39,699 nucleotides of DNA, from NCBI GenBank assembly GCA_013334485.1, contig JAAXXL010000021.1:1-39699 (forward strand), given 5' to 3'. The notes under the pieces were generated by a model. It was not told the DNA's origin. It was given only the letters and a program-made list of their open reading frames with translations, and ran no database searches. This DNA comes from Chlorobiaceae bacterium. Its GTDB lineage: Bacteria; Bacteroidota; Chlorobiia; Chlorobiales; Chlorobiaceae. Positions 1 through 23,980 of the stretch are shown here, in pieces (position 1 is the stretch's first letter; every line of letters begins with the position of its first letter). The position numbers and the translations under genes were made by a program.

Positions 1-3000
1 TTCTCCGCACCCGGCCTGAGCATGGCAACAGCTGCTCCTGTCCATGACCACCAGAAAAGCTCCCAGATTGAAACGTCAAAGGTTACCGGTGTTTTCTGTA
101 AAATAACATCACCGGCGCCGATAGGGAAGGTGCGCTGCATCCAGAGAATACGGTTGAGAACCGCGTGATGCTCAATCAGAACACCTTTCGGCCTGCCGGT
201 TGAGCCGGAGGTAAAGATGATATAGGCCGGATCATCAGGTTCGGCACGTGACACCGGATCGGCCTCTTCAGCGACCGAAGGAAGGGTAATGGCTCGGCAT
301 CGCCCGCTCAATAACGCCGGCAGCGGTTGATCAACGAGAACAAGGGGGTTTCGGAACTCGTCGATCATCTCACAAAGACGCTCGGCGGGGTTGCTTGCGT
401 CAAGCGGAACATAGACACCTCCGGCCATCAAAATGCCGAATATTGCGGCAAGCATATCCTCTGAACGGGGGAGCAGTATGATGACGGCTTCCGCGCGACC
501 GAGTCCGCTGCTCTCAAGCAGAGCTGCCACGGCTGCGGCCCGGCGGGAAAAATTGCGGTAGTTCTGTGTGATACCGTCATGAGCGATTACCGCACGCTCA
601 GCAGCATGAGTGGCCGAGATCTCAAGAAACGGTTCAATAATCGAACGGCGTGTCGGCAGGGAGACGGCGGTATTGTTAAAGCTTTCCATAACCTCTTTCT
701 CGCCCGGAATCCAGATATCGAGAAGCGAAACCGCTTCTACGGGCCTGGCGATGACTGAGCGGGCAAGCGCCTCAAGGCGCCGGACGATCCGTAGAGCGCT
801 CTCCTCTTCAAAAAGCTCTGTCGAGTACTCCAGGAAGAGCTCTATGTTACCATCCCGCTTCATGAAGTTGAATGCAAGATCGAACTTTGCAAACGGCAGG
901 CGGGCCTGATAACTCCGGGTCTCCAGACCCGAAAGTCGGGGGGGTTCGGGAAGAAGATCCTGCCAGGCTACGAGAACATCAAAAAGCGGATTGCGGGAGA
1001 GATCCCTTGGCAGATTCAGGCTGTCGACAAGTCGGCCGAAGGGGCACTGTTGATCACAGAGTGCGGCCTGCCACTCAAGGTTGACCGAGGCAAGATGGTC
1101 AAGAAAGCTCTGATCGGGTTCTATCCGGCAGGGGAGCACCAGGGTATTGACCAAAAAACCGGCAAGATCGGCCATCTCGCTCCCCTCACGCCCGGATGAG
1201 AGGGCTCCAAGAGCAAAAGGTTCTCTCCGATTGTAACCGGAGAGCCGGTAAAGAAGCAGCTCCGAGAGAGCAAGCAGCATGACATAGGGGGTAACGCCTC
1301 TCTCTCCGGCAAGCCGGTCCAGCTCTCGACTGACCATAGAATCAAACCGGATATCGACCGCTGCACCCTCGTAGCTGCGGATTGCAGGCCGCTGCCGGTC
1401 AGATGGCAGATCGAGAGGTTCCGGCGGGGGAGTCAGCCGTTGAACCCTGCGCAGTATAAGCTCTCTGCTCTCCCTGCTCTCAAGAAACCTCTTCTCTGCA
1501 GCAACATAATCCCAAAGAGAGAACTCTGCCGGAGGAGGCGGAGCAGAGGAGAACCCTCTTTCAAAATCGTAGAAGCGGGCAAGATCGTCGAGAAGGATGT
1601 TCAGGCTCCATCCGTCGCAGGCTATATGGTGTATGACCATTAAAAATCGCCACTGCTCTTCACCCAGCCTGAAAAGAAAGGTTCTGACCGGAGCTTCGGC
1701 CTCAAGACGGAAGGGACGGCTGATCTCCTCCTCCATCCGCCGGTCGGCTTCAGTTTCCGGATTGCCCGAGAGTCTGCATTCAACGGTCTGAGGCAGAACT
1801 CCTCCGGGAGGAAGCAGGTGGTGGCGCACTTCGGGATTTGTATCATCTCCCGGACGAATGACAAGCCGCAGCGCATGATGGCGCTTTTCAAGAGAGAGAA
1901 GAGCACTGCTGAATGCCGCTGAGTCGAGTTTACCCTCTATGGCAAAAGAGAGCGGAACATTGTAGAGTGCCGTTGCCGGAGTAAGCTGCTGCAATATCCA
2001 GAGCCGTTCCTCGTTGTTTGAAAGGGGAAAATCCTCCGGCTCCTCCCTCAGCATCTCCAGGAGAGCAGTGCGATCCTTTTTGCCGTTTGCATTGAGCGGA
2101 AAGTGCTCAAAAGTTATAAAACGGGCCGGCATCATATAGAGGGGCAACCGTTCGGCAATACGGTTTCGCCAGGCCATTTCATCAGGTTGAGATGAGGAGA
2201 CAAAGGCTACCAGCGCCATCCCTTCTCCCTTGCCATTCACCATGGCCAGTGAATCGTTTACCCCCTTGCACCCGGAGAGAACCGCTTCAATTGCCGGGAG
2301 CTCGACCCGGTGACCGCGCAGTTTGATCTGGCCGTCTCTGCGGCCGCAAAACTCAAGCAGACCATCCTCTCTGAATCGTGCAAGATCGCCGGTGCGGTAG
2401 AGACGCTCTTCAGGGTTGTCGGGGTGTGTTACAAATACCTTCGCGTCAAGATCCTCTCCTCCGGCGTAGCCGATTGCAAGGCCGTCTCCGGCAGCATAGA
2501 GTTCACCGATAATGCCCGTTCCGCAAGGGCGCATGGCGTCGTCAAAGAGATAGATCCTTGTTCCTGCAACCGGGCAGCCGATCGGCACACTCCTGCCAGA
2601 CAGATCCTCCGGACGGACACTGTGAATAGCCGTAAATGTTGTGTTTTCGGTGGGTCCGTATCCATTAATAACCTGAAGCAAAGGGCAGGATTCCATCACT
2701 CTCTTGAGATGCACAATGCTCATTGCTTCACCGCCGCTTAATAAAACGCGAAGCGGTCTGAATGCAAGGGGAGCGTAGTCAGCAATCCGGTTGAAAAGTG
2801 AGGCGGTCAGCCACATGGCAGAGATACTCTTTTCCTGAATATAGTTTCCGAGCTTCTCCGGCTCCATCAACAGCGCATCCTCAATGAATACAAGCGTTGC
2901 GCCGTTCAGCAGAGTGCTCCATATTTCGAGGGTCGAAGCATCAAAACCAAAGGGAGCAGTCTGCGCCATGGACTCTCCCGGCTGGAGCGAGAGCACTCTT

Positions 3001-4067
3001 TTGTCAAAGGCAAGACGGCTGACTCCACGGTGCGGAATGATTACCCCCTTCGGTTTACCCGTTGAGCCGGAGGTGAACATGATGTAAGCCGGTTTGTCAC
3101 CGAAACCTCGATGCAGTTCCGGAAGAGCGCTACCGGGTGCATCGCGCTTCAGCTCTTCAATATCAAGCAGCCTGATACCTCCCGGATCACCGAAACCCTT
3201 CTCTGCAAAGAACCGTTCACCGGTTCGTCGGTCCGTGATTATCCAGTGTGCATCACAAACATCAAGAAGCTCCCTGACCAGCCGGGGAGGTAATTTCTCA
3301 TCCAGCGGCAGATAGGCTGCACCGCATTTGAGCACACCAAGCAGTGCGGCAACTGCTTCAGGTTTGCGCGGCAGTGCAAGTGCCACAACGCTGCCCGGCC
3401 CTACACCAGCGGCTGCGAGTCCGGCCGCAAGAGCTCCGGACCACTCTTCAAGCGCTTGATAGCTGTATGATTCATTGCGGTAGATGAGTGCGGGAAGATC
3501 ACGGTATCGCTCAGCCGCTGTGTGCCACAAAACGGCAAGTGAACTGTCACGGGGCCAGGGGGATTCTGCCGGATTGACGCCGGAAATAAAGGGCTTTCCG
3601 GGAGTGGGTGCCGGAGGGGATGCACTCTTTTCCGGTAAAGGAGTGCAAACCGGAGCGGTACCGGAAAGCTCGATCAGCGCTGCCATCCTGCCAAGTGTTC
3701 GCGCCGCTATTGCCTCTGCCAGATCAATTTTGCCGAGTCCCGAGACTTCGATCCGGTGAACCAGCCGCATGAGCAGAAGACTGTGGCCTCCAAGAATGAA
3801 GAAATCGTCGTTACGACTGCTCACATCGCTCCGGAGAAATTCACGCCAGAGAGCGGCAAGCCGTTGCTCCGTGTCCGTCAGTGGCTCTTCACTGCCACCG
3901 CACTCCTGCTGCAGAAATGCAATGAGTTCCGGCTTTGACTCCAGCACTTTTTGGCGGAGATCATCATTGAAAACCCCCTCCGGAGCATCAAAACAGAGGG
4001 TTCTGTTTTCAACACTGAGCTGTATATCGAGTGCCGAAAGCTCGGCAAGAAGCTTTTGAATCGACAT
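1..4067 (-). CDS. Nonribosomal peptide synthetase, docking-T-A-C-A (5' complete, 3' beyond window)
   Basis: Starts at ATG 4067, 6 nt after the exporter stop, and stays open to the left edge (1,355 codons visible). Order read from the translation: a TubC-like N-terminal docking domain (residues 1-55); a carrier (T) domain with the phosphopantetheine serine in GGHS at Ser96; an adenylation domain (about 165-665: FTSGSTGKPKG, Asp376 in FDAS, GYGPTE, YRTGDL, Lys663 in NGKKDR); a condensation domain (about 675-1090; HHIACDG at 813-819); and a second A domain (FTSGSTGRPKG, Asp1331 in FDVS) cut by the edge. No carrier lies between the first A and the C domain: about 12 residues separate NGKKDR from the C1-like motif. 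By-eye pocket residues of the first A give DALWLGGTFK, close to the published Val code DAFWIGGTFK. The second shows only Asp-Val-Trp at positions 235/236/239, as in Ser-type pockets. Product class is certain; substrates are inferences. Confidence 0.96.
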   Translation of the reverse strand, partial: MSIQKLLAELSALDIQLSVENRTLCFDAPEGVFNDDLRQKVLESKPELIAFLQQECGGSEEPLTDTEQRLAALWREFLRSDVSSRNDDFFILGGHSLLLMRLVHRIEVSGLGKIDLAEAIAARTLGRMAALIELSGTAPVCTPLPEKSASPPAPTPGKPFISGVNPAESPWPRDSSLAVLWHTAAERYRDLPALIYRNESYSYQALEEWSGALAAGLAAAGVGPGSVVALALPRKPEAVAALLGVLKCGAAYLPLDEKLPPRLVRELLDVCDAHWIITDRRTGERFFAEKGFGDPGGIRLLDIEELKRDAPGSALPELHRGFGDKPAYIMFTSGSTGKPKGVIIPHRGVSRLAFDKRVLSLQPGESMAQTAPFGFDASTLEIWSTLLNGATLVFIEDALLMEPEKLGNYIQEKSISAMWLTASLFNRIADYAPLAFRPLRVLLSGGEAMSIVHLKRVMESCPLLQVINGYGPTENTTFTAIHSVRPEDLSGRSVPIGCPVAGTRIYLFDDAMRPCGTGIIGELYAAGDGLAIGYAGGEDLDAKVFVTHPDNPEERLYRTGDLARFREDGLLEFCGRRDGQIKLRGHRVELPAIEAVLSGCKGVNDSLAMVNGKGEGMALVAFVSSSQPDEMAWRNRIAERLPLYMMPARFITFEHFPLNANGKKDRTALLEMLREEPEDFPLSNNEERLWILQQLTPATALYNVPLSFAIEGKLDSAAFSSALLSLEKRHHALRLVIRPGDDTNPEVRHHLLPPGGVLPQTVECRLSGNPETEADRRMEEEISRPFRLEAEAPVRTFLFRLGEEQWRFLMVIHHIACDGWSLNILLDDLARFYDFERGFSSAPPPPAEFSLWDYVAAEKRFLESRESRELILRRVQRLTPPPEPLDLPSDRQRPAIRSYEGAAVDIRFDSMVSRELDRLAGERGVTPYVMLLALSELLLYRLSGYNRREPFALGALSSGREGSEMADLAGFLVNTLVLPCRIEPDQSFLDHLASVNLEWQAALCDQQCPFGRLVDSLNLPRDLSRNPLFDVLVAWQDLLPEPPRLSGLETRSYQARLPFAKFDLAFNFMKRDGNIELFLEYSTELFEEESALRIVRRLEALARSVIARPVEAVSLLDIWIPGEKEVMESFNNTAVSLPTRRSIIEPFLEISATHAAERAVIAHDGITQNYRNFSRRAAAVAALLESSGLGRAEAVIILLPRSEDMLAAIFGILMAGGVYVPLDASNPAERLCEMIDEFRNPLVLVDQPLPALLSGRCRAITLPSVAEEADPVSRAEPDDPAYIIFTSGSTGRPKGVLIEHHAVLNRILWMQRTFPIGAGDVILQKTPVTFDVSIWELFWWSWTGAAVAMLRPGAE

Positions 4068-4073: not shown

Positions 4074-5708
4074 TCAAATCTGGGTTGCACCATCCGGTTC
4101 ATCGATCTGACCCTCATGCATCCTGTACATTCGATCAGCGAGATGGAACCATCGATCATCATGGGTGACCGAGATGATGATCTTGCCACGAGCCTTGAGA
4201 TCCGGCAGAAGCTCTTCATAGAAGATTCCGCGAAAATAGGGATCCTGGTCAGCCGCCCACTCGTCAAGTACAATGATCGGTTTGTCTTCAAGCTCCGCAA
4301 CAATGAGTGCAAGGCGCTTCCTCTGACCCGACGAGAGATCAATGGTGCTGAAGGTGCCGTTGATCACGCTGACTTTATCCTTCATTCCGAACCGCTCAAG
4401 CATCATGCTGATTTTTTCCTGATCCGTCTCATCGATTGAAGTGAGGCGTCGCGAGAGATGGAAATCGGAGAATATGGCGGAAAACTGGTTGCGGTAATCC
4501 TGCATCTGCCCGGTTCTAAGCTCAAGCCGGTCGGCCAGAAGGGAACCTGAATCAAGCGGAATAAGGCCTGTAAGCATCCGCAGCAGTGTCGATTTGCCTG
4601 AGCCGTTCCCTCCGGTGATCATGGTGATCTCTCCGGCACAAAACTCTGCATTGAGCGGGCCGACCTTGAAGAGAGAGTGACCTTTCTCGTCACGGAAAGA
4701 GAGTTCTGCCATTTTGAGGGCAATCGACCGGGGAGTTTTTTCAAGCAACTCGCTCTCCTCACTTGATGCGGATTTAGCGGCTGAAAAAAGCCTCTCCTTG
4801 ATTTGCTCAATATTTTCAAGTGCCATTTCCGCCTTGGTCACAAGCGGCGTTACAAAAGATACGGTACTTACCGGTCCCGAAATAAAAAGAACGGCAATTG
4901 TGGCAGGAAGAATAACGGCATGAAAGCCCGCAACCCATAATGGAACAACAAAAACCATAATGCCAACCAGTGAAAAGAGCATGGCTTCAATAACCGCATA
5001 ATTTCGACCCCATTGCGCTTTCAGAAGTGAACTCGACGTGCGGGACTCACGGGAGGCATCTGCCAGAGTGCTGGTCACATCATCGGCACGCATTCTGTTC
5101 ATCCTGATCTCCTTGAACCCGTGCAGAAGTTCGGTAAGAGCGTCAAAAACCCGCTTTTCAGCATCATCAGCCGCCTTCATCATGATGCGAAGAGCCCTGA
5201 CACGTGAAAAGCGTATGGCAACAGTCAAACCGGCAAGACCGAATGCAAGCAGACATGCCAACGGGGAGAGCCATGCAAGGTAGGCTGCCAGAAAAAGCAG
5301 CATGACCGCCTGCTGAAACCCGATCACCACCATGGGAAGCACCTCTGCAAGAATCTGGGTATCCTGGGTCAGCACACCCTGAAGCGCTGCATGGCCTATC
5401 TTCTCAATGGTCACCAGATCGGTTCGGCGGATAAGGTCGAAGAGGCCGGTACGAAGTTTGTGTATGAGCCGCTCGGTATCCCTGGAGGCTGTTACAAGGG
5501 TATAGATGTGTGTTACATGGTAGAGTGTAACTGTTATGGCAAACATCAGCATAAGGCGTCCGCTGATCTGACCTGTTCCCCCCTCATTTGCCGCAGTTGA
5601 CACAAGAGCAACAAGCGACATTGTTGCAACCGCCGACAGGATATTCATCAAGAGGAGCGGCTTCAGATTTTCAGGTATCTCCTTCAAAACCGCCTTGTAT
5701 AGTCTCAT
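4074..5708 (-). CDS. Cyclic-peptide-type ABC exporter, TMD-NBD half transporter (second of pair)
   Basis: A 544-residue fused ABC half-transporter. About six hydrophobic segments fill residues 1-290, followed by a nucleotide-binding domain with Walker A GGNGSGKST near residue 368, signature LSSGQRKRLAL near 457 and Walker B IIVLDEWAADQDP near 480. The DEWAADQDP form is typical of the PvdE/SyrD family, which exports nonribosomal peptides and siderophore precursors across the inner membrane. The ATG at 5708 overlaps the stop of the preceding exporter gene (ATGA), and the stop is 6 nt before the NRPS2 start. This points to translational coupling and co-expression with the synthetases. The likely role is export of the cluster product, probably as a heterodimer with its neighbour. 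The substrate cannot be read from the sequence. Confidence 0.93.
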   Translation of the reverse strand: MRLYKAVLKEIPENLKPLLLMNILSAVATMSLVALVSTAANEGGTGQISGRLMLMFAITVTLYHVTHIYTLVTASRDTERLIHKLRTGLFDLIRRTDLVTIEKIGHAALQGVLTQDTQILAEVLPMVVIGFQQAVMLLFLAAYLAWLSPLACLLAFGLAGLTVAIRFSRVRALRIMMKAADDAEKRVFDALTELLHGFKEIRMNRMRADDVTSTLADASRESRTSSSLLKAQWGRNYAVIEAMLFSLVGIMVFVVPLWVAGFHAVILPATIAVLFISGPVSTVSFVTPLVTKAEMALENIEQIKERLFSAAKSASSEESELLEKTPRSIALKMAELSFRDEKGHSLFKVGPLNAEFCAGEITMITGGNGSGKSTLLRMLTGLIPLDSGSLLADRLELRTGQMQDYRNQFSAIFSDFHLSRRLTSIDETDQEKISMMLERFGMKDKVSVINGTFSTIDLSSGQRKRLALIVAELEDKPIIVLDEWAADQDPYFRGIFYEELLPDLKARGKIIISVTHDDRWFHLADRMYRMHEGQIDEPDGATQI

Positions 5709-7354
5709 ACCTGGCCCTCCCGGTTTACGTGCAGTTCTGTCAGGCGTCCATACTCAAGGTGAAGACGGCGGTCTGCTGCGTCAAAATACCGGTCATCATG
5801 CGTCACTGCAATAATGGTCAGGCCCCTGCGCTTTAGTTCAGGCAGGATCACCCGATAGAACTTCTTCCTGAAATAGGCATCCTGGTCTGCGGCCCACTCA
5901 TCAAGAATCAGTATCGGCTTTTTCTCAAGCAGCGCAGCTACAAGAGCAAGACGTTTGCGTTGCCCGGTTGAAAGCTCTGTTCGGGTAAACTGGTTGCCGG
6001 TGATAGCGACCACTTTGTCCATCTCCATCCACCCGAGCAACTCTTCGGCTGCAGGGGAGTCGACCTCTCCGAGGCCGTAAAGGTGCGTAAAGAGATGAAA
6101 GTCAGAAAAGACCGGTGCCATGAGGGCACGATATCCGACAAGCAGGGAAGGAGTTATAACCAGCTTGTCCTGATAGAGATGGCCACGATCGGGATGATAG
6201 AGAGAGGTCAGCAGTTTTATCAAACTCGACTTTCCGGAGCCGTTGCCGCCGGTTATGAAAACCACCTCTCCCCGTTTGATGGTTACGTTGAGAGGTCCGA
6301 GAGTGAAGGGTGTTTCACCCTCAGGCGCCGGATAGGCAAACTCCATATCTTCCATACGTATCTCACTGAACTCAGGCGAAAAGCTCTCCCGAAGCTCCTC
6401 GCTGCAGGGCTCAACAATATTGATCAGTTCGCCCTCAAGCTCCATCATACGGCCTGCGGCAGCTTTGGCGGCACGTAGTACTGTCAGGGATTGCATCAAC
6501 CCGAAAACAGGAGGAACCATAAAGAGCACCGCTGCCGATATCTTGACCAGCTCGGTGCGCACCGAAGGGGAGTAGAGAGGAATAACAAAAACCACAAGCC
6601 CCAGCATGAGATTGAACATGGTTTCGCCGAATACAAACTGCTGCCACCCCTGGCGGTGCATTTCACTGCGTGAGGAGACCGTATGCAGTGATAGCTGATT
6701 GAACTCCTCACCAAGAGCTCCGCTCCGTCGGGAGGAGAGACGCTGCTCCTTGAATCCGTCAAGAAGGTCGGTAACACATTCGAAAAGTTTCCCTTCATCA
6801 CCGGCCAGCACCTCCTGACACTTCTCCAGAGAGAGCCCGAGGCGATAGTAGACTGTTGTTGCTACGGCAAGCAGCGCCGTCAGCATAATGCAGGAGAGCA
6901 GGGAGACTGTTGCAATATAGATGAGAATCATCCCGATCTGGATAACCGATCGGGTCGTCAGTGCAAGGTATTGGGAGTTTGATGAAACAACCTTGCAGCT
7001 CTGGGTGATGTTTGTAAAGAGCCTGCTTTGACCGAAGTGCTCCAACTGCCAGAGATCAGCATGACGCAGCCGGTAGATCAGCTTCATGCGAAGCAGATCT
7101 ATCGCCTGTTCGATATCGGCGGCAAAGCGCTCAACCAGACGTGTTTCAAAGATCACATAAGTCAATAGAGCGACAAGAAAGAGCGCGGCAAGCGGCAGAT
7201 TAACGAACTCCTCACGGGTTCTGTCGATCTCTTGGGCAGCAAAGGTAACCACTGAAAGCACAAGAGTGGTGCTCAGTGCCGAGGCTGAAGCAAATGCAAT
7301 AAGCTTCCGCAGAGGTTTGCCACCGATCAGATGCAGGAGACGAAGTAAAGACAA
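5705..7354 (-). CDS. Cyclic-peptide-type ABC exporter, TMD-NBD half transporter (first of pair)
   Basis: A 549-residue paralogue of the next gene, with an N-terminal membrane domain (about residues 1-300) and a C-terminal ATPase. Walker A GGNGSGKSS lies near residue 372, signature LSTGQRKRLAL near 463 and Walker B ILILDEWAADQDA near 480, with the switch His in VTHDDRY. The start is TTG at 7354. A strong AAGGAG lies six bases before it, and no in-frame ATG is better placed. It precedes its partner with an ATGA overlap, which suggests stoichiometric production of a heterodimeric exporter of the PvdE/SyrD type. A 232-nt gap separates it from the epimerase gene upstream, so an extra promoter for export and NRPS2 may sit there. 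Confidence 0.93.
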   Translation of the reverse strand: MSLLRLLHLIGGKPLRKLIAFASASALSTTLVLSVVTFAAQEIDRTREEFVNLPLAALFLVALLTYVIFETRLVERFAADIEQAIDLLRMKLIYRLRHADLWQLEHFGQSRLFTNITQSCKVVSSNSQYLALTTRSVIQIGMILIYIATVSLLSCIMLTALLAVATTVYYRLGLSLEKCQEVLAGDEGKLFECVTDLLDGFKEQRLSSRRSGALGEEFNQLSLHTVSSRSEMHRQGWQQFVFGETMFNLMLGLVVFVIPLYSPSVRTELVKISAAVLFMVPPVFGLMQSLTVLRAAKAAAGRMMELEGELINIVEPCSEELRESFSPEFSEIRMEDMEFAYPAPEGETPFTLGPLNVTIKRGEVVFITGGNGSGKSSLIKLLTSLYHPDRGHLYQDKLVITPSLLVGYRALMAPVFSDFHLFTHLYGLGEVDSPAAEELLGWMEMDKVVAITGNQFTRTELSTGQRKRLALVAALLEKKPILILDEWAADQDAYFRKKFYRVILPELKRRGLTIIAVTHDDRYFDAADRRLHLEYGRLTELHVNREGQV

Positions 7355-7586: not shown

Positions 7587-8831
7587 TCAACGATATATCA
7601 ACTGCACGGCTTCCTCAACGTGACTCCTGAAAGAGTCACAGAGCAATTTGTGACGATCTTCCTGCAGTGAGCTTTCAAACCAGAGCCCGATTTTCCCTTT
7701 CCGGCCCAGTCCATTTATATCGACAATGTTTCCGAACCGGTTAAGTGGGCTCATGCTTTCACCGCTGGGCTCCTCAATGCAAATCTGCCAACTGCTCTCG
7801 TCAATGCCGATGAGCCGTTCAAGATAGTTAAAGAGAATCCCGGGAAGCTTCTCATAACTGTATAATGCCCCGTATCCGATTCCCTGGGCGGGAACGGCTC
7901 TTAACCTTGCCCTGTTCATCCTGATTGTCTCTTCAATACCGCTGCCGACAGTCAGACAAAGAGGAAAAAGCGTTGTAAACCATCCGACTGTCCGGCTGAC
8001 ATCAAGAGGCACAGAAACTCCCTCCCGTCCCGGTTTTTCAACGGTTATCCAGTTCTCCTTTTGTCCGCTCACTTCAAACATTGCACAGGCCAGAGCACCG
8101 AGCAGCAGATCACTTATTTGCGGAGTGCCGTATGCAGGAGCTGGCTGCTGTAAGGTCGAAACTATCTCCGGAGAAAATTCAACCCTGTTGCATTGCATCG
8201 GAGAGTTACCCGCTTCACTGAGTTTCTGCCAGAGCTTTTGGCCCTCCTCCTCAGCCGATCGTGACTTCTCCCAGTAGCTCCGCTCTTCTTGCGTTGCCGT
8301 CAGGGCGTATGACTTTACGGCTTCAACCCACTCCCGGTAACTGCAGCTCCTCTTTTCGGGCTCTCTCTCCAGGTAGAGTGCTTTCAGATCCTCACGGATG
8401 ATCGACCAGCTTGCCGCATCAACCACCATGTGGTGTATCGCAAGAAAAATCCTTTCACTCCCATCTGCATACCCTCCGAGAATCCCGCTCTGCCAGAGAT
8501 AGCCACGTTCAAGGTCAAAGTGGTTTTGCCATCTCGTCAGCGTTTCAACTATCTCCAGCTCACTTTTCCCTTCTGTATCAAGCTCCTTCAGCTCAACAGC
8601 CGTGCTCTCTTTCAATAAGCACTTGCCCCCGGCAGGATAGTGTGCCCTGAGCATTCCATGCCTCAGGCTCAGCTTCTCCAGTGCAACCACCAATCGCTGT
8701 TTGTCAATCGGCTCATTGACGCGGAATAGAAAGGAGTGGTTGAAGTGATTGCGCTTTTCAAGCGGTCTCGTCATAAACCACTCCTGAATGGGCAGATAAT
8801 CGAATGTTTCTGATGATGTCATAATACTCAT
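7587..8831 (-). CDS. Free-standing NRPS epimerization domain
   Basis: A 414-residue single-domain protein with the E-domain motif series in order: LPIQEWF (E1, start of the protein), HHMVVDAASW (E2), SDLLLGAL (E3), VEKPGREG (E4 region), RTVGWFTTLFPL (E5), PAQGIGYG (E6) and FNYL (E7). RTVGWFT, GIGYG and FNYL distinguish E domains from condensation domains. E domains epimerize the alpha-carbon of carrier-bound aminoacyl or peptidyl thioesters and are normally embedded after a T domain. This one is separate and would have to act in trans. The usual Gly of HHxxxDG is Ala, and the His of EGHGRE is Pro, but the catalytic His pair and the Glu are kept. The ATG overlaps the NRPS1 stop by 4 nt (ATGA), so it is probably translationally coupled. 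A C-type function is less likely. Confidence 0.88.
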   Translation of the reverse strand: MSIMTSSETFDYLPIQEWFMTRPLEKRNHFNHSFLFRVNEPIDKQRLVVALEKLSLRHGMLRAHYPAGGKCLLKESTAVELKELDTEGKSELEIVETLTRWQNHFDLERGYLWQSGILGGYADGSERIFLAIHHMVVDAASWSIIREDLKALYLEREPEKRSCSYREWVEAVKSYALTATQEERSYWEKSRSAEEEGQKLWQKLSEAGNSPMQCNRVEFSPEIVSTLQQPAPAYGTPQISDLLLGALACAMFEVSGQKENWITVEKPGREGVSVPLDVSRTVGWFTTLFPLCLTVGSGIEETIRMNRARLRAVPAQGIGYGALYSYEKLPGILFNYLERLIGIDESSWQICIEEPSGESMSPLNRFGNIVDINGLGRKGKIGLWFESSLQEDRHKLLCDSFRSHVEEAVQLIYR

Positions 8832-11800
8832 CTCCCGGCCACCTCCATGGCCATAGCCAATAGTGCATTGAGTCCCTCCTTTGGTATCGAAGGCCAGGTG
8901 ATACCGAAATTTTCAAGCAGAAGCAGGGTCCTCTTCGAGACGACCATAACCTTGTGTCGTCCTGCCAGTCCAGGGTTGGCGGATTGAAGCCCGAAATTCT
9001 CAACGGTTTCTGCAACTGCCGACTCCATCTCATGTTCGCCTGTGGCCTCTTGCAGCCTTGCGAGAAAATCACCGAAACTGCATGCCCTGACACTCTCTCT
9101 CATCCCTTCGGCTGGGAGAATAACATCTGCCAGAGAGTCACGGCGGGATGTCTCAATATGGTGAATCTCATTGGCTAATGACTCTCTCTCTGAAAGTGCA
9201 ATAATTGATCGGGCAACCAGATCGACATGGGAGAGCGATGCCGGAAACTCCATCGGCACAACACCGAGACGGATGAATGCCGCAAGCTGCCGGAAAAATG
9301 CATTATCACGGATGTTCTGCTGGAGCCTTGACCCCTTTGCGGCAAAGGAGATGTTTCCGACCCGGTGGATGGTGCAGTCGGGAAGCTCTGATCGGTATGC
9401 AAGGACAAGCCGTTCAGCCTCCTGCTTGGAGCGGATATAGTAGTTGTCATCGAGAACCTCTGGAGGAGAGTCATACTCGGTAAAGAGCCTGCTTTCGCCA
9501 TAGAGAGCACTTGCTGCAACTGAAAGGGTGGAGACAAAATGAAAATCAGCACTCTTTCCGCTTTGTTGCGCAGCCAGACGGAGAAGGTGGCGTGTTGCCG
9601 AGACATTGTCAGCAAGAAAATCACGGTAGTGACCGATATGGTTTACATTGGCAGCACAGTGGTAGATGGCATCAACTGTGTCCGAAAGCAGGCTGTAATC
9701 ATACTCCCGAAGAAGCAGTTGCGCATGACGGAGATCACCTGAAAGAAGCTTCAGTCGCGGATTTTCAAGCAGTGCACTTCCCTCATCAGGACCGAAATAC
9801 CAGTTCAGAACCTGCGCCAGCCGTCTCCGCCCGGCAACAGTGTCGCTGCTCCGCACCAGCACCGTTACCTCAACACTCTTGTCGGCAAGCAGTTCACGCA
9901 AGAGATAGCTTCCCAGATAACCGGTTGCGCCGGTAAGCAGCAGATGGCGGTATGATCGGCAAAGCCTGAGATCACGTTTCAGATCGGCCGCTACTCTCTC
10001 TTCATAGTGGAGTCGCTGAGGACGCAACAGCTCCTCCTGATCATAACCTGCATCCTGCTGAAGGCTCTCTGAACACTCCTGTTCTATAGAGAGACTCAAG
10101 AGAAGGTTGCGCAGATGATCGGGTCGGGGATTGCAGAGAAGGGCAAAGTCAGAAAGCACCGGGTGTTCGTAAAGGTTATTGACGGTACACTCAAACTCAC
10201 GGCCAAGACGGTTTATGACAGCTATAGCCTTCAGGCTGTCACCGCCAATGTCAAAAAAATGATCCTCCCGTGAGAGCATCGGCTTGCGGAGCAGTTCCGA
10301 CCACACCTCTGAAATCCTTTTTTCAATGGCGCTCTGCGGGGGTGTGCGATTGAATTGATGCTCGCTCTCCGATCCCTCATCCGCGAGCGGAAATGCCATT
10401 TGTGATTGCGATTCAAGCAGCGCCTCCCTGTCGACTTTCCCTGCCGGCGTGAGCGGTATTGAAGGGATCCGGATTATTGACGCAGGAATCATCCAGGAGG
10501 GGAGTGTTGCCGAGAGCCAGGTGGTCCACTCCACGTAAGTTGGAATTGAGGCCTCTTCATCAGCGGTAACAAATGAACGGAGAAACTGGCTATGGTCAGC
10601 ATCTGTTTCCACGATGGTAACCGCCTGCTGTATGCCCGGCCAGGAGGCAAGTCGGTGCTCAATTTCACCGAGTTCGACACGCTGACCGCGTAATTTCACC
10701 TGTGTGTCCCTTCTCCCGAGAATCTGCAGTTCGCCTGATGGAAGCCACCTGCCGAGATCGCCGGTTCTGTATCGTCGCTCTCCCTTCACGAAGAGGAATG
10801 CCGAAGCTGTAAGATCGGGTCTGTTGAGGTAGCCTTTAGCCAAACTCGCTCCTCCGACCCATACGTCACCGATAGAGCCGGGCGGAAGTGGTTTGCCCTC
10901 TTCTGAGGTTATATAAATTGTGGTGTTGGGAAGGGGACGACCGGTATGGATCGCTTCTTGATCGGGAAGAATACGACCGAGAGAAGAAGCCGCCGTATTC
11001 TCGGTAGGACCGTAACCATTGAAGTATGAAAGCTTTGGTGCGTAATAGCGGGCATCATCACTCACCGGCGACTCACCAACAGTCATGATAAGGCGGAGGT
11101 GGGCAGGAAATTCAGCCTGTTCAAACAGTCGAAGATAGGAGGGGGACATCGTTGCAATGGTGACCCCCCTGTGCCGGATCAAATCATGCATACAGGGAAT
11201 ATCATTCATCTCTTCACGCCTGACCGGCACCAGCGCTGCACCGGCGGCCCATGATACGGCCAGATCGCTTATCCAGAGATCAAATGAGGGCGAAGCGATC
11301 TGCATTACCCGGTCATCACTGTGGAGATCAAAAATTTCGGACTCGCCGAAACCGAGATTGAGCAGCCCCCTGTGGGAGAGCACAACACCTTTTGGCAGGC
11401 CGGTGGAACCTGACGTATAGATGATATAGGCAGGATCGTCAGGTGCAACTGTTCTGTCAAGTTCCCCTGAATCAGCCGGATCGTTGGGCATCTCTTCCGG
11501 TCGCACTATATGGAACTCATCACCGCCGAGTTCCGGTGGGAGGGGAAGCTGGTCAAGCGCAATGATAACTCGCACGCTGCACTCCCTGGCCATGAAGGCA
11601 AGCCGCTGTGGCGGCAGATCGGCTGAAAGTGCCAGATAGCATGCACCGGCTTTCCAGATTGCAAGCACCGTCTCCTGAAGTGTTGTGGAGCGCTCCGTCA
11701 ACACCGCGACGGTATCACCCGGCTGCACATCACGTTTCAGAAGAACACGGGCCAGGGTTTCAGCCCGGGTGTTGACAAGGTGGAAGCTCAACTCCGCCCC

Positions 11801-14800
11801 GGCAGTAACCACTGCGGGCCGCCCGGGGTAGAGCGAAGCGATCCTCAAGAAATGCTCGGGAAGAGTCTTTGCCGGCCAGGTACGGAGTGCACCCTGTTGC
11901 CAGCATGCAAGTTGCGCCTCCTCTTCAGGCAGCAGAAGCGGCAAAGGAGGTGATCCGCCATTGTTCTCCATGCTTAAAAACCGCATCCAGCCAATCAGGG
12001 AATCAAACATTCGGCGGGCACTACTCTCGCTATAGATGACGGCATTGACATAAAAGGTAAGAACAACTCCTCCATCTGCCTCTCCCTCATGCACCAGCAC
12101 CATGTCCTGAGCAGGCGCATTTTTTCGAACTTCATAGCCAACCACGCCATACTCAGGAAGGCCAAGCCCGCTGAAAAGGGGCTCCCGCTCTTCAGACGGA
12201 GTGAATGGCGGATTTTCTGTAACAGCAATATCAAAAAGAGGATAACGACCAGGATGCACTCCCGGCTCCTGATTACGACGAAAATCACTGTAGATTCTCG
12301 AAAATGGGTATCGGGAGTGCTGAAGGGCTTCAGCAAGCTGATGCTGCATCTGCTGCACCACAGCATCAACTGAAGGTGATTCAGGTGCGCGGAAAACAAG
12401 CGGAAGCATGTTTATAAAATATCCTATGGTTCGCATCTCGTCACCTGATTGCCGTGTAGAGGCGGCAGTACCAAGCATAAAACTGTTTCGACCAGTACGG
12501 CGGCGAACTTCAAGCCCGAGCAGGGCGAGCATGAAGGCGTGAAGCGTTGAGCGGTTTCTTTTGGCAAGTGAACGCAGTCCATTTGCGGTCTCCCTGCCAA
12601 GAATGGTTCGCAAACAGTGGCTTCCGACGCAGGAGGAGGCGGAACGTGAGTTTGGACGCAATGAGTCAAGCGGCCACTCATCAAAGGCTTCAGGCGAATG
12701 TTTCAGAAGGCCGCCGGTGAGATTGTTCCAGTACTCAGCGTCGAAGAGTGCACTGCTGCTCTCCAGATAGGCGGCTTCACGCGCTGCCGGGCGATCGAAA
12801 CCGGCGCTCAGCACTGAGAGTGCGCTGCCTGTGAGCAGAGCCGAAAGTTCATCGATGAGAATGCCGAGCGAGAGCCCGTCGCCGACAGCATGATGCATTA
12901 CAAACCAGAAAACGCTCTGCGGGTTTTCACCAACAGTTATCAAACCTGCACGCCAAAGCCCCGGCTGGCTCATGGAAAAGGGTTCACTTTGGAAGCTGTT
13001 GGCAAGTGCACGGGCCTCTTGAAGCGTTGAGGAGAATTGAAACAGCGGGAGGGCATCAACCTTGTCAGAGACCACCCGCCGAAGGAGTCCTGATTCATCC
13101 TCAAGAAATCCGGTACGAAGGGCTTCATGCCGCTCGATCAACTCACTCCAGAGTGCGCTGAACTTTTCCGGAGAGGGCGCTTCGAGATGCAAAAGCAGCG
13201 TCAGGGGGATATTGAATCCGCTGGTGTCAAGCCCTGCATGCTCGGCCGTCCAGAACTCACGCTGCCCCTCTGTAGCAAGGTCTGAAAGGCCGTCAAGGGT
13301 TCCCTCCTCTGTGGCTCTCAACTCGCGAACCCTTTCAGAAAAACCGGCAAGGGTTGGTTCCGCAAAGAGTTCGCGAGCGGGAACTTCACGCCCGAGTTGT
13401 TTTTCGAGTCGATGGGCAACAGAGATTGCCAGCAGACTGTGACCGCCGAGAGCAAAAAAGTTGTCTTCGCGATGGATCGGAGTTCGTTTCAACAGATCAC
13501 TCCAGATCCCGGCAATAGAGCTTTCCAGCTCATCTTCTGGCAAAGTCAGCCCGGAGTTCAAAGGATGAAGATCCAGCAGGTCAAGAAGTGCCCCCCGGTC
13601 CACCTTGCCTGAAACCATCAGGGGAATGGAGTCCACCGAAATCACTCCGGAGGGGATCATATGAGAGGGCAGGCGCTCCATCAGGAAGGTTTTCCACGCA
13701 TCCATTCCGGGCATCTGCTCTCCCGGAGCAGGCCGAACAACTCCCCATAAACTCTTTGCTCCCCCTGGTTGCTCCTGCAGAAGAACCACCGCCTGCGAGA
13801 TTGCCGGATGCAGCATCAGAGCGTACTCTATTTCGCCAGGTTCAATGCGAATTCCGTTCAACTTCACCTGCTCATCAATACGCCCGATAATCTCAATAGT
13901 TCCATCCATGTGCCAGCGGCCAAGATCTCCGGTACGGTAGAGACGACCATGCGGACTCTCCCTGAAACATGACGCATTGAGTTCCGGACGGTTCAGGTAC
14001 CCCTGGCTGATTCCGAGGCCTCCCAGCCAAACCTCTCCCGCAACCCCAGGGGCGAGTGCGCTGCCCTCTTCATTGCAGACAAAGAGTGTAGTATTCGGCA
14101 GGGGACGACCGCATGAGAGAAAACGGCGATCATCACCCGTCAGAACGCCCATGGTGCTGGTTATCGTATTCTCTGTTGGACCATAGGCGTTGAAATAGCT
14201 CAGCTTCGGAGCATACCGATACACATCGGCCGGCAGCGGAGCTTCGCCCCCGGTTACCAGCACCCGCACAGAGGAGGGGAGCTCCATCCCCTCGAAGAGT
14301 CCGAGATAGGTTGGGGTAATGTCTGCCACCGTGATACGCATCTCCTGCAGAAAATCAAGAAAACGCTTTGGTGACTCAATAATATGTTTCGGCACAGCAC
14401 AAATCGTACCACCTGTCAAGAGCGGTAAACCTATATCGGAGAGGGAGACGTCAAACGATGGGGAGGCGAACAGGAGAGAGCGGTCATCGGCATTGAAACC
14501 AAGAATTGCGGCGGCACCGAGCACCATATTCACCAGACTTTTGTGTGCAATCAGTGTTCCTTTCGGCCTGCCGGTCGAGCCCGAGGTATAGAGGATGTAG
14601 GCCGTATCCTCCGGGTCACCAACATTTTCAGCTCTTTGCGCATATTGCTGCAGATATTCTCCGGTCAGCTCCTCGGGCCGCAACGGATCGGAAAAGAGGC
14701 AGGAAAGCACTTCAGGCAAGGCCACGCCGTCAAGAACAATGAGATGAGTTGCCCCGGCATCTTCAGCCATAAAGCCGATCCGTTCCGGCGGCAGTTCAAC

Positions 14801-17800
14801 GGAGAGGGGCAGGTAGATGGCACCACTTTTCCATATACCCAGCAGTGCTGCCGGAAGGTTCGGTGAACGACCGGTCAGAACCGCTACCACACTCCCTTTT
14901 GAGACTCCGCATTCTGAAAGTGCGTGAGCAATGGCGTCAGCCTCATTATCAAGCTCCCTGTAGGTGATCTGGCGATCCGGTGTTATGACTGCCGGCCTGC
15001 CAGCCTGACCCGGCAGACCAGTGATACGCTCAAAAAGGTGGTGAACACAGAGTTGCGGGCGCTCGATCATCTCTCCCTGTTGCCATGCGCCAAGCATGCA
15101 CAACTCCTCCTTGAGGAGAGAGGGAAGGGGACGATCCGCATTTTCCTTGCTTTCCGCAAGCCATCGAGCCCATCCTCTCAGCGCTTCAAGCCAGATCCGG
15201 GCCGTCTCCTGACTGTAAATGGCGGCATTGACATGCCATTGCAGCAGAATTTCCCCTCTCTCCAGATTCTCATGGATAAGCACCATATCCTGGCCGGGTG
15301 AATTGCCGGTAAATTCATACCGGATTGATTCATCCGGATTTCGGGAGCGTGAAAAACAAGAGGCTCCACCAACCCTGTTGCTGCCTGGATTTTCCGTTAC
15401 TGCAATATCAAAAAGGGGATAGCGCTGTGGATTGCGCAGTTGCGGACGATCGTTCCAGAAAGAGTGGCAGATGCGGGAAAACGGGAGCCTGGCATGCTGC
15501 AGTGCCTCGGCGAGGTGTTGCTGTGTTGATTGAAGGAGTTCGCTGAAGGTTCGCTGACGTTCTGCCTTGAGATGGAGGGGGAGCATATTCACTCCATAGC
15601 CGACTATCAGTGAGTCGGACGCTCGCTCCCGGAGAGAAGCCGTGGTACCGATCATGATGTCGCTCCTGCCGGTGCGCCGGCCGGCTTCGAGTGCGAGAAG
15701 CGAAAGAATCAGCGAGTGTAGCGTTGCACCATTATTGCGCGCAAGAGCTTTGAGCACATCGGCTGTCCGGCACTCAAGGAGTAGCTCAAAACGATGGCTG
15801 CCCGTTGCACTCCTTGAGGATCGAGCCATGTCGAGAGGCCACTCCTCAAATGCCGGATCCGGTACCTGATGCAGGAGGTTTTTCCAGTGGAGCGCCTCTT
15901 TTGTCGCCTCCGGAGAAGCAAGATAGGAATACTCACGTGCAGCAAAGAGTTTCCCGCCTTTCACCTGCCCTGAGAGCTCACCCGCCTGAAGCAGGGTGGT
16001 CAGTTCACTCAACAGGGTAGCGATCGACTGCCCGTCACCAAGAGCGTGATGAAGCGCCAGCCAGAAAAAACGCTCCTGCCCCTCTGCGGTTTCAACAAGA
16101 CCGGCCCGCCACAGAGGAGTTGCACTCATCGAAATGGAGGTGAACTGCCGTTCGCGTATCAGGCCGAGAGCATCGGCCCGGGAGAAGGTCTGTGAAGATT
16201 CAAGCGTCCACTCAACATCATCAGCAATATGGCGTCTTAATTGTCCGGTTTCATCCTCCGCAAAACTGCTCCGTAAAGCTTCATGGCGCTTTACCAGAAT
16301 CGCCCATGCACTCTGGAGGCGATCTGTTGTAATCTCTCTGCTTATGAGATAGTCAACCGGAATAATGAAATTACGGGTATCAAGTCCGGCTGACTCTGCA
16401 ATCCAGAACTCATGTTCACCTTCAGAGGCAAGAGCACTCTCCTCTTCGACAGCATCCTCCTGGGAGAGCGGCTCCAGGGTTGCTATTGTTGCGACAAACA
16501 TCCTCAGTGTCGGAGCCGCAAAGAGCGCGCGTGCAGAGACCGGCAACCCGAGTGTTTCTCGTATGCGATGAGCCACGGTTACGGCAAGCAGACTGTTACC
16601 GCCGAGGGCGAAGAAGTTGTCGCTTCCGACAACACTCTGCTCAAGCAGATCGGCCCAGATGGCACCTACCTTTCGTTCAAGCGGACTCTGAAGCATCTCC
16701 ACATGAACGTCACTCTTTCGCTTCTCCTGCAGAGAGCTGAAGAGTGCCATCCGGTCAACTTTTCCGGAAGGGGTAAGCGGAATAACTGCTACCGCCATGA
16801 TTGAAGCCGGAACCATATGCAGCGAGAGGTGCCCGGATAGATAGTCAAGAAGCTTTGCCTCGGAAAACAGGCTCATATTTTCGGGTTGCACAAAAGCCCT
16901 AAGCACCTTCACTCCGCTCTGCAGCTCATCGGCAAGCACAACAGCAGTGACAACTGAAGGGTGCAGGGAGAGCATCTGCTCTATTTCGCCAGGCTCAACA
17001 CGCTGACCGTTCAGCTTGATCTGCTGATCGATTCGACCGCTGATTTCAAGTTGACCTTCCCTGCTCCATCTACCATAGTCGCCTGAGCGATAGAAGAGGC
17101 CTTCCGGGCTCTCTACAAAGTGCATCGCACTCTCCTCAGGCTGATTGAGATATCCCCGGGCGATCCCCAGACCGCCGAGCCAGATCTCACCCTCTGCGCA
17201 GGGAGGAACCGGAGAGCCGTCATCCCTACGGACAGAAATCTGCATGTTGGAGAGGGGAGTGCCCACGCTGATGGGGCATCGAGGATCGTGGTCACCCGGA
17301 ATCAGAGCCCCCGACACCACAATGGTCGCCTCGGTAGGGCCATAAAAATTCCAGAATGCGACACTGCCTGCGTAGAGCGCAACATCGTTATGGTTCGGAG
17401 CCTCTCCTCCGGTGAGCAGAATACGCAATCCTTCGAACGGCAGTTTCTCGCTGACCCTGAGGTATGACGGCGTATGAAAGGCAACGGTGACGCCAAGATC
17501 GCGATAGTATGGCTTCATCTGCCACGGATCTTCACGAAGTGCGGGGGCAACCGGAACCATAGCAATCCCGCTGAAAAATCCGTGGCCCATCTCCCAGAGG
17601 GATGCATCAAAAGTGATGGTCGAAACAAGTGCGATACGGTCATCATCTCGAAGCCCTATGCGCTCTGCAACACCAACTATTGTATTGATATATGCAGCAT
17701 GTGTTACGGGAACCCCTTTTGGAGTGCCGGTCGTTCCCGAGGTATAGATAATGTAGGCAACATCATCCACTGTTCCGTCAATCTCCGGTCGCAGCGCTGA

Positions 17801-20800
17801 AGGTGAAGAATCCTCCGGTCGGATAATGGCATCAAACTCCCGCGAGAGAGCCTCTGGCGTGGTGAGACCGTCAAGGACAATAAGATGCTTTGCGCGGGCA
17901 TCTCTGGCCATTGTTGCCAGTCGAGCTGCGGGAATATCAGCAGAGAAGGGGAGATAGGATCCTCCTGCTTTCCATATTGCGAGCACTGTAGCCGGGAGAT
18001 TTCCGGGAGCTGAAGCAAGTACAGCAACAACTGTACCCCGCACCACACCGTGACTCTTGAGGCATGCTGCAATGCCGTTTGCCCGGAGATCAAGATCCAT
18101 GAAGGATTCGAACTTCTCTCTTATGATAATTGCCGGACGACATGGATTGTGATCAACAATAACTTCGAAAAGTTCATGACTGCGCCGCTCTGTCCGGATC
18201 TGCTTCGCCCCGTTTTCCCATATCCGGAGCAGCTCCTGCTCTTCCGGAAGCAGTGCGGGCAGCGGCTGCTCCATCCTTTCAGGATCTTCAGCCAGCCATC
18301 GAGCCCATGCAGCAAATGAAGAGAGCCACGCCCTGGCGCCCTCAATCGAGATCACTTCAGCGTTCCAGCTCAACAGCAGATTCAAGGCGCCACTCTCTTC
18401 AGCAGAAGGTTCATGACTGAAGGAGAGATCAAGACCGGCGGCCGGATGCCTGTCTTCTCCAGTGAGAGTAAGGGGCTCCAGCGTGATACCGCTCTTGCGG
18501 TCAATGCTGGTGCGGGAAGGAATTGCGGTCAGGGCAATATCGAAAAGTGAAGTCCGGGATGGTGCGCGAAGGTCGGGATAGCTCCGGCGAAACTCTCTGT
18601 AGAGCATGCCTGCTGGATAAGCTGCATGTTCAACGGTTTCAGTCAATGCTGACTGGGTAGTGCGCAAAAGAAGCGAAAAGGGGAGATCGCCATCCTTCAA
18701 AAGAATAACAGGAAGGAGGTTGACGAAATGGCCGACTGCGTTCTCATCCCCGGCAGGTCTGATGGTAATGCCGCTTCCGATCAGAATGTCACTTTTTCCG
18801 GAGCGGCGCCTGATCTCCGAAGCGAGAACGGCCAGAAGCAGGGCATGCAACCCGGTTCCGCAGCGTTTAGCCAGCCGCCCGAGAGTGCTCACCGTCGCTG
18901 CATCAAGCTGCTCCACAAGAGGCTCATCGCCATCTGATCCGGACAATGCGGGACGCTGATGTTCCGTTACATATTCACTGAAGGCACCGCTCGCTCTTGC
19001 GGCTAAAGCCTCCAGACTGCTCGACCAGAATATGCGGTCGCGTTCGGCTTTTCCAGAGTGCAGATAGAGACGCTCTGCCCTGCTGGCCATGGCAATGCCG
19101 TTTGGTGCCGTTTGCAGCCGAACTCCGCCAAGCAGAGAGAGCAGATCATCCTGTATGATTTTGGCGGATGTGCCGTCCACAACAGAGTGGTGGAGCACGA
19201 ACCAGAAAAGTGTTTTCCTGCTTTCCTCAATCCTGACAATACCAGCCCTGGCTAAAGGGGGATCATCAAGCTTGAACCGATCATTTGCCCGGCGTTCAGC
19301 GATGCTGCGGCCCTCTGCTCCTGAATGACAATGATCAATCCGAAGTGCTGCGTGAGCGGATAACTCGCATGAGGAAACGGTTCGCCAGCAGATCCGGCCC
19401 GATTCATCTGCATATAACGCTGTTCGCAGCGCAGCATGGCGATCAATCAACCCTGCCCAGGCCGATTGCCATGCATTATTTGAAAATTCGCGACCTCTGA
19501 CATAGAGAACGCGCACAATGTGTGACGCTGCCGGATCAAGATCGAGCTCCGAGGCAATCCAGAAATCCTCCTGGTCTGCCGTTGCAATATCAGAAACAGT
19601 CTGATCCTGGTTGCCGGGAAGTTCAGGTTGCAGCTCAATCTCAGAGATCTTTTCTGCAAGTCCCCTGATGCTCAGGGTGCTCAGAACCATCTGCACCGGA
19701 ACATGGTAACCAAGCAGATGCAAACGCTGACTTACAGCAATGGCAAGCAGACTTGTTCCGCCTGCGGCAAAGAAGTTCTGCTCTCTCATGATCGGTCGGA
19801 CATCAAGAAGCTCCTCCCAAATTGAGGCGATGGCCTTTTCAATATCTCCCTCCGGAGGGGTAGAGCAATCTCCTTCTCCAGCGCCGTTAAAGAGGATACC
19901 TTCTGCAATCTCCTGAAGGGCTCTCTGGTCAACCTTGCCTGCCGAGCTTAACGGCATCTTCTCCAGCACGACAACATGTGCAGGAATCATATAGGAAGGT
20001 AGAGTCCTTTGAAGAAACTCACGCCACGCTATCGCTTTCGCATCTGCTAAATCATGGGACTCGACAAAGGCATAAAGCATCTTTTTAAGATGTAAAACCT
20101 TTGCGATCTTAACTGCAGGATGGCGCTGGAGCGCAAGCTCAATCTCATCAAGCGAAACCGCCTGCCCGGAAATTTTTACCGCATTGTCTGATCTTCCGAG
20201 TGTTTCAAGTTCACCGTTGCTGTTCCATCGGGCAAGGTCACGTGAACGGAAAGCTCGCCCATAACGTGTTTCAATAAAATACTCTGCGTTCAGTTCAGGT
20301 TGCTTCAGATAGCCTGGAGAAACACCGACACCAACAACATGAACTTCACCGATTTCGCCTTGCGGCACCTCATTTCCCTCCTCATCGAGCAGATAGACCT
20401 CCGTATTTGCAAACGGCCGGCCGCTCAACACAGTACCCGTTTCATCGGGATCGACATGATGCATGCAAATGGTACCGCACACCTCAGTTGCGCCGTGTAC
20501 ATTCCAGTAATCAACATATTCGGCATAATATCTCGCATCATCAGCATTCGGCAGTTCACCGGCAGTTATGACACAGCGAAGCCCCTCAGGAACTGCCCTG
20601 TCAAGAAGATGAAGGTATGATGGGGTAAAAAGCGCGATTGAAACATGGTGGCGACTCATCAACTCAATCAGGAGATCAGGTCTGTCTACTACAGATCGTG
20701 ATACCGGGACAAAGGCTGATCCTGAAATCAGGGGAATGCAGAGCGTTCGGAAACCAAGAATAAATACAGGAGAGGAGGAGAGCAGGATGCGGTCTTCACT

Positions 20801-21397: not shown

Positions 21398-22708
21398 TCA
21401 GACCGTACCGTTTTTCTCGGGAAAAAGAGCTGTCTGGTAGCCGAGACAGCGGTATCCGTTTGCTGCAGAGTCGTGATCAATACTCCTCACCCATTCCCCG
21501 TTTTTACCCAGCTCCTGCTTTACCCAGTTGCATATGCTGATCGTTATGCCATATTCAGTAGCCGAGTTCCTGATCTTCTCCAGATAGCCTACACAGATGC
21601 TTCGTTCAGGGGCGAGCCTGGAGCGCTGTTTGATATGGTTCTGATTTTCGCCTGACAGATAGGGCCTGAAAAACTCACCGATGAGTTCAGGATCGAAGTG
21701 ATTGATGTAATTTGCAAGAATTACCAGATTGCGTATTTCGGTAGTCAGAAATTCCGGCTTGATATTTCGTATACCGGCTGAAGCCAGATGTGACATGTAT
21801 CGGTCGATGTTCTCTTCGGTAAGGTAGGGGAGCATAAGCGGCTGACAGAGCACTGACTCGGCAAACATACCAAGCTCCCGGCATTGCACCAGAGTCTCAA
21901 GACGCTCCTCAATGGAGGCTGCATTTGGTTCAAGTACATCGCGAAGATAGTGCGGCATAATGCCGATGCTGCCGTTTATCTGGATTTTTGATGCAATTTT
22001 GCCCATCAGAGAGAAAAGTGTATCCCCCTTGTGCATCACCTGCAAATGTTTTGGCCCTGCTTTTGTAGCAATAAAAATACGCACCGGAGAGTCAGGGTAT
22101 TTATTAAAATGGCTAATAAAGGTCCGAAAAATATCGTGGGCTATACCATTGTAGAGGTGCGGCTCGGAGAACGCTTCGGTTTTCGGCGAAAAGTAGTAAA
22201 AGAGCGCCTTCTGACGATTCTCTTCAAGCGAGTTGGCCAGCCGGTCTGCATAGTTGGTGTAGACCGTGATCGGTTTTACATGGTTGCCATCGGTAACAAG
22301 GCAGTACTGGCAGGCAACCGCACAGGAGCCCGAAGAAGGGGAGACCTCAAGAACATTTGTAGGGCAGAGACCTGTGTAGTTATGAATCTCCAGTGGCTCA
22401 CCGGGATCTGTAAGCGCTTCCTCGAAATGATCGCCGGGAGTAAGATTATTGTTTTCATAAAGTTTGCGAAACCACTCTGAACCAATTTCAAGACGGGATG
22501 CAACGTCGGGAGTAATCTCATAGTCCAGACCAAGATTGATGAGCAGTTTACTGTCGATTTTCAGGGGCACAAAGCCCTTCAATTCAGTACAGTCCGGTCG
22601 ATGTGCTATGTAGCTGAAAAGCGTGTGTACAGGCATTGGTGCCTGTTTTGAATTGCTGTCTGAGTGGGCGGCGAGATTTGTTTCAGGGGGCATAAACGGG
22701 GGGTTCAA
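21398..22708 (-). CDS. Radical SAM protein at the head of the NRPS operon
   Basis: A 436-residue protein with the radical SAM cluster motif CAVACQYC (Cys129, Cys133, Cys136), which binds a 4Fe-4S cluster and cleaves S-adenosylmethionine to make a radical. The overall look, with the motif preceded by a long N-terminal region and followed by further Cys residues, recalls spore-photoproduct-lyase-like (SPL) radical SAM proteins. That assignment is only by eye. Its stop is 6 nt before NRPS1, so it should be co-expressed and may modify the peptide, a building block or the starter unit. The start is TTG 22708, with an AAGGG about 11 nt upstream. ATG 22693 (five codons in) is the alternative. There is no clear SPASM domain, though C-terminal cysteines exist. 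The reaction is unknown. Confidence 0.85.
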   Translation of the reverse strand: MNPPFMPPETNLAAHSDSNSKQAPMPVHTLFSYIAHRPDCTELKGFVPLKIDSKLLINLGLDYEITPDVASRLEIGSEWFRKLYENNNLTPGDHFEEALTDPGEPLEIHNYTGLCPTNVLEVSPSSGSCAVACQYCLVTDGNHVKPITVYTNYADRLANSLEENRQKALFYYFSPKTEAFSEPHLYNGIAHDIFRTFISHFNKYPDSPVRIFIATKAGPKHLQVMHKGDTLFSLMGKIASKIQINGSIGIMPHYLRDVLEPNAASIEERLETLVQCRELGMFAESVLCQPLMLPYLTEENIDRYMSHLASAGIRNIKPEFLTTEIRNLVILANYINHFDPELIGEFFRPYLSGENQNHIKQRSRLAPERSICVGYLEKIRNSATEYGITISICNWVKQELGKNGEWVRSIDHDSAANGYRCLGYQTALFPEKNGTV

Positions 22709-23977: not shown

Positions 23978-23980
23978 GCG

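Follow-up and report, generated by a model that had tools for sequence, protein, structure and literature searches.

We found that the gene directly following the large nonribosomal peptide synthetase NRPS1 in a Chlorobium genome encodes an epimerization (E) domain as a protein of its own. Judging from its sequence and its distribution among related genomes, we hold with moderate confidence that this E is a catalytically competent, translationally coupled separate domain that would act in trans on NRPS1, likeliest at its last carrier (T4) before reductive release. The window, that is the whole stretch of 39,699 nucleotides that was analysed, is contig C97 of a 2.59-Mb draft genome. At this locus Chlorobium ferrooxidans DSM 13031 is its nearest named relative, with 73% identity; from this and from close matches within the window's own genus we take the genome for a Chlorobium. 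The features of the locus are as follows.

3-4067, minus strand: NRPS2, TubC_N-T-A-C-A by Pfam, cut at the contig end; not a constant partner of E
4074-5708, minus strand: ABC2, cyclic peptide export ABC transporter (TIGR01194, 330.2 bits; cut-off 286.2)
5705-7354, minus strand: ABC1, subunit of the cyclic-peptide exporter type (TIGR01194, 278.7 bits, slightly under the cut-off of 286.2)
7587-8831, minus strand: E protein, 414 aa, with HH133-134, D138, E265 and F334-N335-Y336 kept (Pfam, PDB, tree and motif alignment)
8828-21391, minus strand: NRPS1, 4187 aa, A-T-C-A-T-C-A-T-C-A-T-TD by Pfam; presumed partner of E
8831-10003 (approximate), minus strand: TD, terminal thioester reductase of NRPS1 (NAD_binding_4; PDB MxaA and AusA reductase domains)
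10082-10351 (approximate), minus strand: T4, last carrier of NRPS1 (GGDSL), likeliest putative target of E (motif and T-type scoring)
21398-22708, minus strand: radical-SAM-like protein (Rv2578c-family radical SAM, E 2.4e-08, a weak match below the cut-off)
23096-25799, plus strand: Band_7 protein, periplasmic binding protein and DUF697 protein, which accompany the locus (Pfam)

Embedded E domains are usually read as acting on the carrier that immediately precedes them in the same chain. Unlike these ordinary domains, the 414-residue protein described in the initial annotation has no T domain ahead of it in the same polypeptide, and both its ORF and its ATGA overlap with NRPS1, in which the ATG of E shares its bases with the NRPS1 stop, were seen again here. 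Two starts are candidates, this first ATG or the ATG at 8822 (Met4), and the orthologue in genome G021 starts at the equivalent of Met4. The only Pfam match of the protein is Condensation, with 147 bits. The earlier statement that neither synthetase of the window contains a visible E domain also holds, as the domain list of NRPS1 (four A, three C and four T domains plus the terminal reductase) agrees with a search for the E4 motif, which was negative for NRPS1 and for NRPS2-NRPS5 of C. ferrooxidans, where these are complete.

By its motifs and its phylogeny, the protein is shown to be a true E domain with its catalytic residues intact and under purifying selection. First, all seven E-domain motifs that had been reported could be located in the sequence, namely E1 PIQEWF, E2 HHMVVDAASW, E3 DLLLGAL, E4 EKPGRE, E5 RTVGWFTTLFP, E6 PAQGIGYG and E7 FNYLE. 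Second, its matches in the PDB are E-domain stretches at 99-156 bits (PvdL, bacitracin synthetase 3, gramicidin S synthetase 1 and the tyrocidine synthetases), against at most 36 bits for condensation domains. Third, a tree of 78 C and E domains, computed by maximum likelihood with IQ-TREE and with the references labelled by their place in their synthetases, puts the stand-alone proteins within the E clade (100/100). Their sister group (100/98) consists of embedded E domains from a Vibrio plasmid and from a proteobacterial MAG, and the DCL, LCL and NRPS1 C domains lie apart. Clustering with C domains, which the initial annotation had singled out as contrary to its reading, is therefore not what the tree gives. 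Fourth, pairwise dN/dS values are 0.12-0.31 for E, roughly as for NRPS1 (0.18-0.24). The E-specific C-terminal model TIGR01720 scores the protein at 36.5 bits, under its cut-off of 74.2, and the embedded E domain of the MAG (L003) is also below it, with 66.3 bits. An AlphaFold2 model made from a three-sequence alignment had a mean pLDDT of 46 and was set aside.

In an alignment of nine stand-alone and 13 embedded E domains, H133, H134, D138, W142, E265 and F334-N335-Y336 are invariant, whereas the stand-alone clade differs from the embedded references at A139 (G or S in the references), A140 (V or I), S/P143 (R), K/R266 (G) and E/D338 (G). The two deviations noticed earlier are thus fixed in the family: the glycine of HHxxxDG is Ala in all nine orthologues, and the first Gly of EGHGRE is replaced in all nine by Lys (once Arg). 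Such deviations are less odd than they appear, since the glycine position of HHxxxDG is Ser, not Gly, in the closest embedded E domains. The G266K, R143S/P and G338E changes could reflect either altered carrier docking or altered activity. Given that residues invariant among the reference embedded E domains are changed, E might have lost catalysis and serve NRPS1 as a platform for docking or recruitment, in the manner of X domains, which are recruiting members of the C superfamily (PMC8949500). We regard this as improbable, for HH, D, E265 and FNY are kept in nine of nine orthologues; X domains, by contrast, have a mutated HHxxxDG motif according to the same paper.

A separate E ORF of 410-436 aa lies between NRPS1 and ABC1-ABC2 in nine of 65 Chlorobium genomes (the window, G007, G015, G016, G032, G012, G021, G069 and G277). 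Its junction with NRPS1 is an ATGA overlap in the window, G007 and G015, a 17-base overlap in G016 and G032, and a short gap in the other four. The initial annotation had warned that the ORF could be a fragment of a larger NRPS, severed by an assembly error or, one may add, a frameshift, and the short contig of the window, which ends within NRPS2, would fit such an artefact. However, the order NRPS1-E-ABC1-ABC2 is shared by nine independent assemblies, each E with its own start codon, and the ORF is under selection as described above. The separate ORF in nine genomes, together with an NRPS1 already closed by its reductase domain ahead of E, rules out an assembly split, to which we give a negligible probability.

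The initial annotation had proposed that a detached domain must recognise one or more carriers in trans. Action in trans does follow from the anatomy, but the partner could be narrowed to NRPS1, where either synthetase of the window had been left in play. NRPS1 is present in 15 of the 65 Chlorobium genomes; the nine E genomes are all among these 15, and the 50 genomes that lack NRPS1 all lack E as well. The E tree is congruent with the NRPS1 tree, so that strict co-occurrence and a congruent history, the pattern expected of a trans-acting tailoring enzyme of NRPS1, were both found among these genomes. Also, E stays beside NRPS1 in G016 and G032 while the neighbouring synthetases differ. In the G277 assembly, which is 88% complete, the only Condensation-family domains are those of NRPS1 and E, and the high-scoring amino-acid A domains are those of NRPS1 pieces, with only short single-domain ligases among the remaining matches. 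Since E is found only where NRPS1 occurs, the two trees agree and NRPS1 is the sole NRPS found in G277, the partner of E is almost certainly NRPS1.

The synthetases located downstream of ABC2 could in principle be served instead. NRPS2-NRPS5 follow ABC2 in six E genomes (the window, for its visible part, G007, G015, G012, G021 and G069), and the C-terminal C domain of NRPS5 lies near the DCL domains, on a long branch. Yet NRPS2 is not beside E in G016, G032 and G277: in the first two, ABC2 is followed by different synthetases on the opposite strand, and in G277 by an asparagine-synthase-like gene, with no synthetase found there. Conversely, NRPS2-5 are present without E in G010 and G033, and their carriers score as C-type by at least 9 bits (see below). 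We therefore judge service to NRPS2-NRPS5 very improbable.

Several features of this row were observed along the way. NRPS2 (window 3-4067, minus strand; G007 C37 26358-35074) has the odd order TubC_N-T-A-C-A with no closing T, and in NRPS3 a methyltransferase is inserted into the A domain, after which come a T domain and a thioesterase. NRPS2-5 are replaced by another large NRPS pair, convergent with the conserved unit, at G016 C46 102532-120425, G032 C122 24762-42658 and G227 C12 5002-22517. The window's contig begins within NRPS2, and the window's own assembly contains no further NRPS4 or NRPS5 C domains; the remainder of the row is probably unassembled in this genome.

We then compared the carriers of NRPS1 with those of reference synthetases, in which the T domain before an embedded E has the motif GGDS in 24 of 24 cases and the T domain before a C domain in seven of 28 (Fisher p 8e-9). 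HMMs of E-type and C-type T domains, evaluated leaving one locus out at a time, assigned 24/24 E-type and 25/28 C-type domains correctly. With these models, T1 (GGTS), T2 (GGNS) and T3 (GGHS) of NRPS1 score as C-type in every genome, by 6 to 28 bits, and T4, the sole GGDS carrier, is neutral in Chlorobium (-6 to +3 bits). Among four control carriers that precede reductases elsewhere, one is neutral and three score clearly as C-type (-15 to -26 bits); a reductase neighbour alone thus fails to explain the score of T4. GGDS itself, which we had at first read as a mark of E, favours T4 only slightly, as the T4 of E-less orthologues and of an Azospirillum NRPS1 carries it too; the latter scores -9.4 bits.

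NRPS1 would equally be the partner if E acted in trans on one of its internal carriers (T1, T2 or T3), the next C domain taking the D residue. Of the three, T1 looks least like a pre-C carrier, and an internal target would need D-accepting C domains. The three C domains of NRPS1 lie outside the DCL clade of the 78-domain tree, in a clade of their own that is not canonical LCL either, and D-acceptance is thus possible for them. We find an internal target rather unlikely, first in view of the scores and motifs of T1-T3, which are those of pre-C carriers. Second, C3 has its best matches in linear gramicidin synthetase and in a C domain of TycC (92 bits), with the PvdL C domain at 74 bits and that of tyrocidine synthase 2 at 34 bits. 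Third, a D-selective C domain would be expected to be blocked by the repeated loss of E. Action at T4 meets no such obstacle: no stereoselective condensation comes after this carrier, so gain or loss of E would not block the line, which fits repeated loss.

With T4 as the preferred target, we infer the following sequence of events, from catalysis to export. NRPS1 would assemble a four-unit chain; once the chain is on T4, E would bind this carrier in trans and epimerize the last residue at its alpha-carbon; the terminal reductase, through which NRPS1 is presumed to release its product, would then free an aldehyde or alcohol, and ABC1/ABC2 would export it.

The comparison of E-containing and E-less genomes shows that E was lost repeatedly in Chlorobium. 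Six genomes have NRPS1 without E (G010, G033, G227, G091, G304 and G352), and mapping presence and absence on the NRPS1 tree gives at least five changes, of which the one on the G352 branch could run either way. Remnants indicate the direction as loss in two of them: G033 retains the final 25 codons of E, with 76-80% identity to those of G021 and G012, and G227 retains an E6-E7 remnant within a 1.2-kb gap. ABC1 accompanies NRPS1 in every genome examined. In G304, ABC1 overlaps the NRPS1 end directly, by four bases, and NRPS1, ABC1-ABC2 and a PPTase form a self-contained unit with a gene order identical in G091. A search for NRPS1 sites changing with E loss gave 133 candidates, spread across all domains of NRPS1 with no hot spot. 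On contig C81 of G010 (L057, L058 and L053), NRPS1 groups with the G016/G032 lineage and ABC1, ABC2 and NRPS2-5 resemble those of G012/G021, as if recombined near the site of the missing E.

Outside Chlorobium, an Azospirillum brasilense plasmid (L086 6547-26466) carries a collinear NRPS1 orthologue, 52.5% identical over 4203 columns, with the same four T motifs and, for the three A domains that were read, almost identical codes; no close NRPS1 orthologue was found in 398 sampled Pseudomonadota genomes. The slot of E is occupied there by a gene for a TauD-family dioxygenase which, like E, is coupled to NRPS1 by a four-base ATGA overlap and is followed by orthologous ABC1 (56%) and ABC2 (61%), then by a hydrolase, DUF697 (37%) and Band_7/prohibitin (31%) genes. 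Unlike the epimerase-family E of Chlorobium, TauD is an oxygenase, presumably another tailoring enzyme. Band_7 and DUF697 genes thus flank the NRPS1 cluster in two phyla, and the radical-SAM-like gene is kept upstream of NRPS1 in those E loci that extend that far. We propose tentatively, leaning somewhat towards doubt, that the position between NRPS1 and the exporter is a plug-in slot for trans tailoring enzymes, filled by an epimerase in some Chlorobium, by a TauD oxygenase in Azospirillum and by nothing elsewhere. In such a slot, since E would act on the last carrier from outside, a lineage that gains or loses one small gene could change the configuration at the reduced end of its peptide, and the megasynthase itself would stay as it is. 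Separately, the specificity code of A1 (window 19800-21391, minus strand), ILRLIAVIC, is without the Asp that binds the alpha-amino group, as it is in Azospirillum and in every Chlorobium genome where A1 was read; the assembly line may therefore begin with something besides an alpha-amino acid.

Chlorobium E belongs to the same family as the embedded E domains of PvdL, BacC, GrsA, TycA and TycB, with the same seven motifs and catalytic residues, but it forms an entire protein that has no T domain, its gene lies behind the reductase end of the synthetase gene, and besides the HHxxxDG and EGHGRE changes it has FNYLE for FNYLG and SWS for SWR. Its closest relatives in the tree, on the Vibrio coralliilyticus plasmid pSNUTY1 (L062) and in the proteobacterial MAG, are 34-36% identical to it and, unlike it, sit behind a T domain inside larger synthetases (1177 and 962+ aa). 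With TIGR01720, which scores the stand-alone proteins at 26-40 bits and could miss divergent cases elsewhere, no comparable stand-alone E was found beyond Chlorobium in the sampled genomes (394 on the Bacteroidota side and 398 Pseudomonadota; a 684-aa frame of G242 left out). Its matches outside Chlorobium are long synthetase frames, and the short ones examined are contig-edge pieces. Two short E-matching frames, in G471 and G394, were rejected as stand-alone E domains, being apparently contig-edge fragments; that of G471 runs off its 3.4-kb contig.

A phrase search of the open-access literature gave no description of a stand-alone or trans-acting E domain; "standalone" in the two relevant hits denotes an embedded E domain as against a dual C/E domain. 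The passages on unusual NRPS organisation in the review PMC8949500 cover stand-alone A-T modules and trans-acting tailoring enzymes with no mention of a detached E, and the other routes to D residues without an embedded E given there (dual C/E domains, cyclosporin racemase and the nocardicin TE epimerase) do not include one either. We therefore consider the novelty of a stand-alone E as provisional.

Kept intact in nine Chlorobium genomes yet lost several times, E resembles a removable switch that sets a peptide's handedness (L to D). Product prediction assigns D residues to the preceding in-chain carrier, a rule that a conserved separate E breaks, so that it would be missed or misassigned. 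A naturally detached E could be used in studies of carrier recognition and for setting stereochemistry in trans in engineered synthetases, and the related genomes that have the same synthetase without E offer a ready comparison of products with and without epimerization. Finally, on an Agrobacterium vitis plasmid (L095 16358-18049), a separate condensation-domain protein of 563 aa is encoded directly after an E-containing synthetase.
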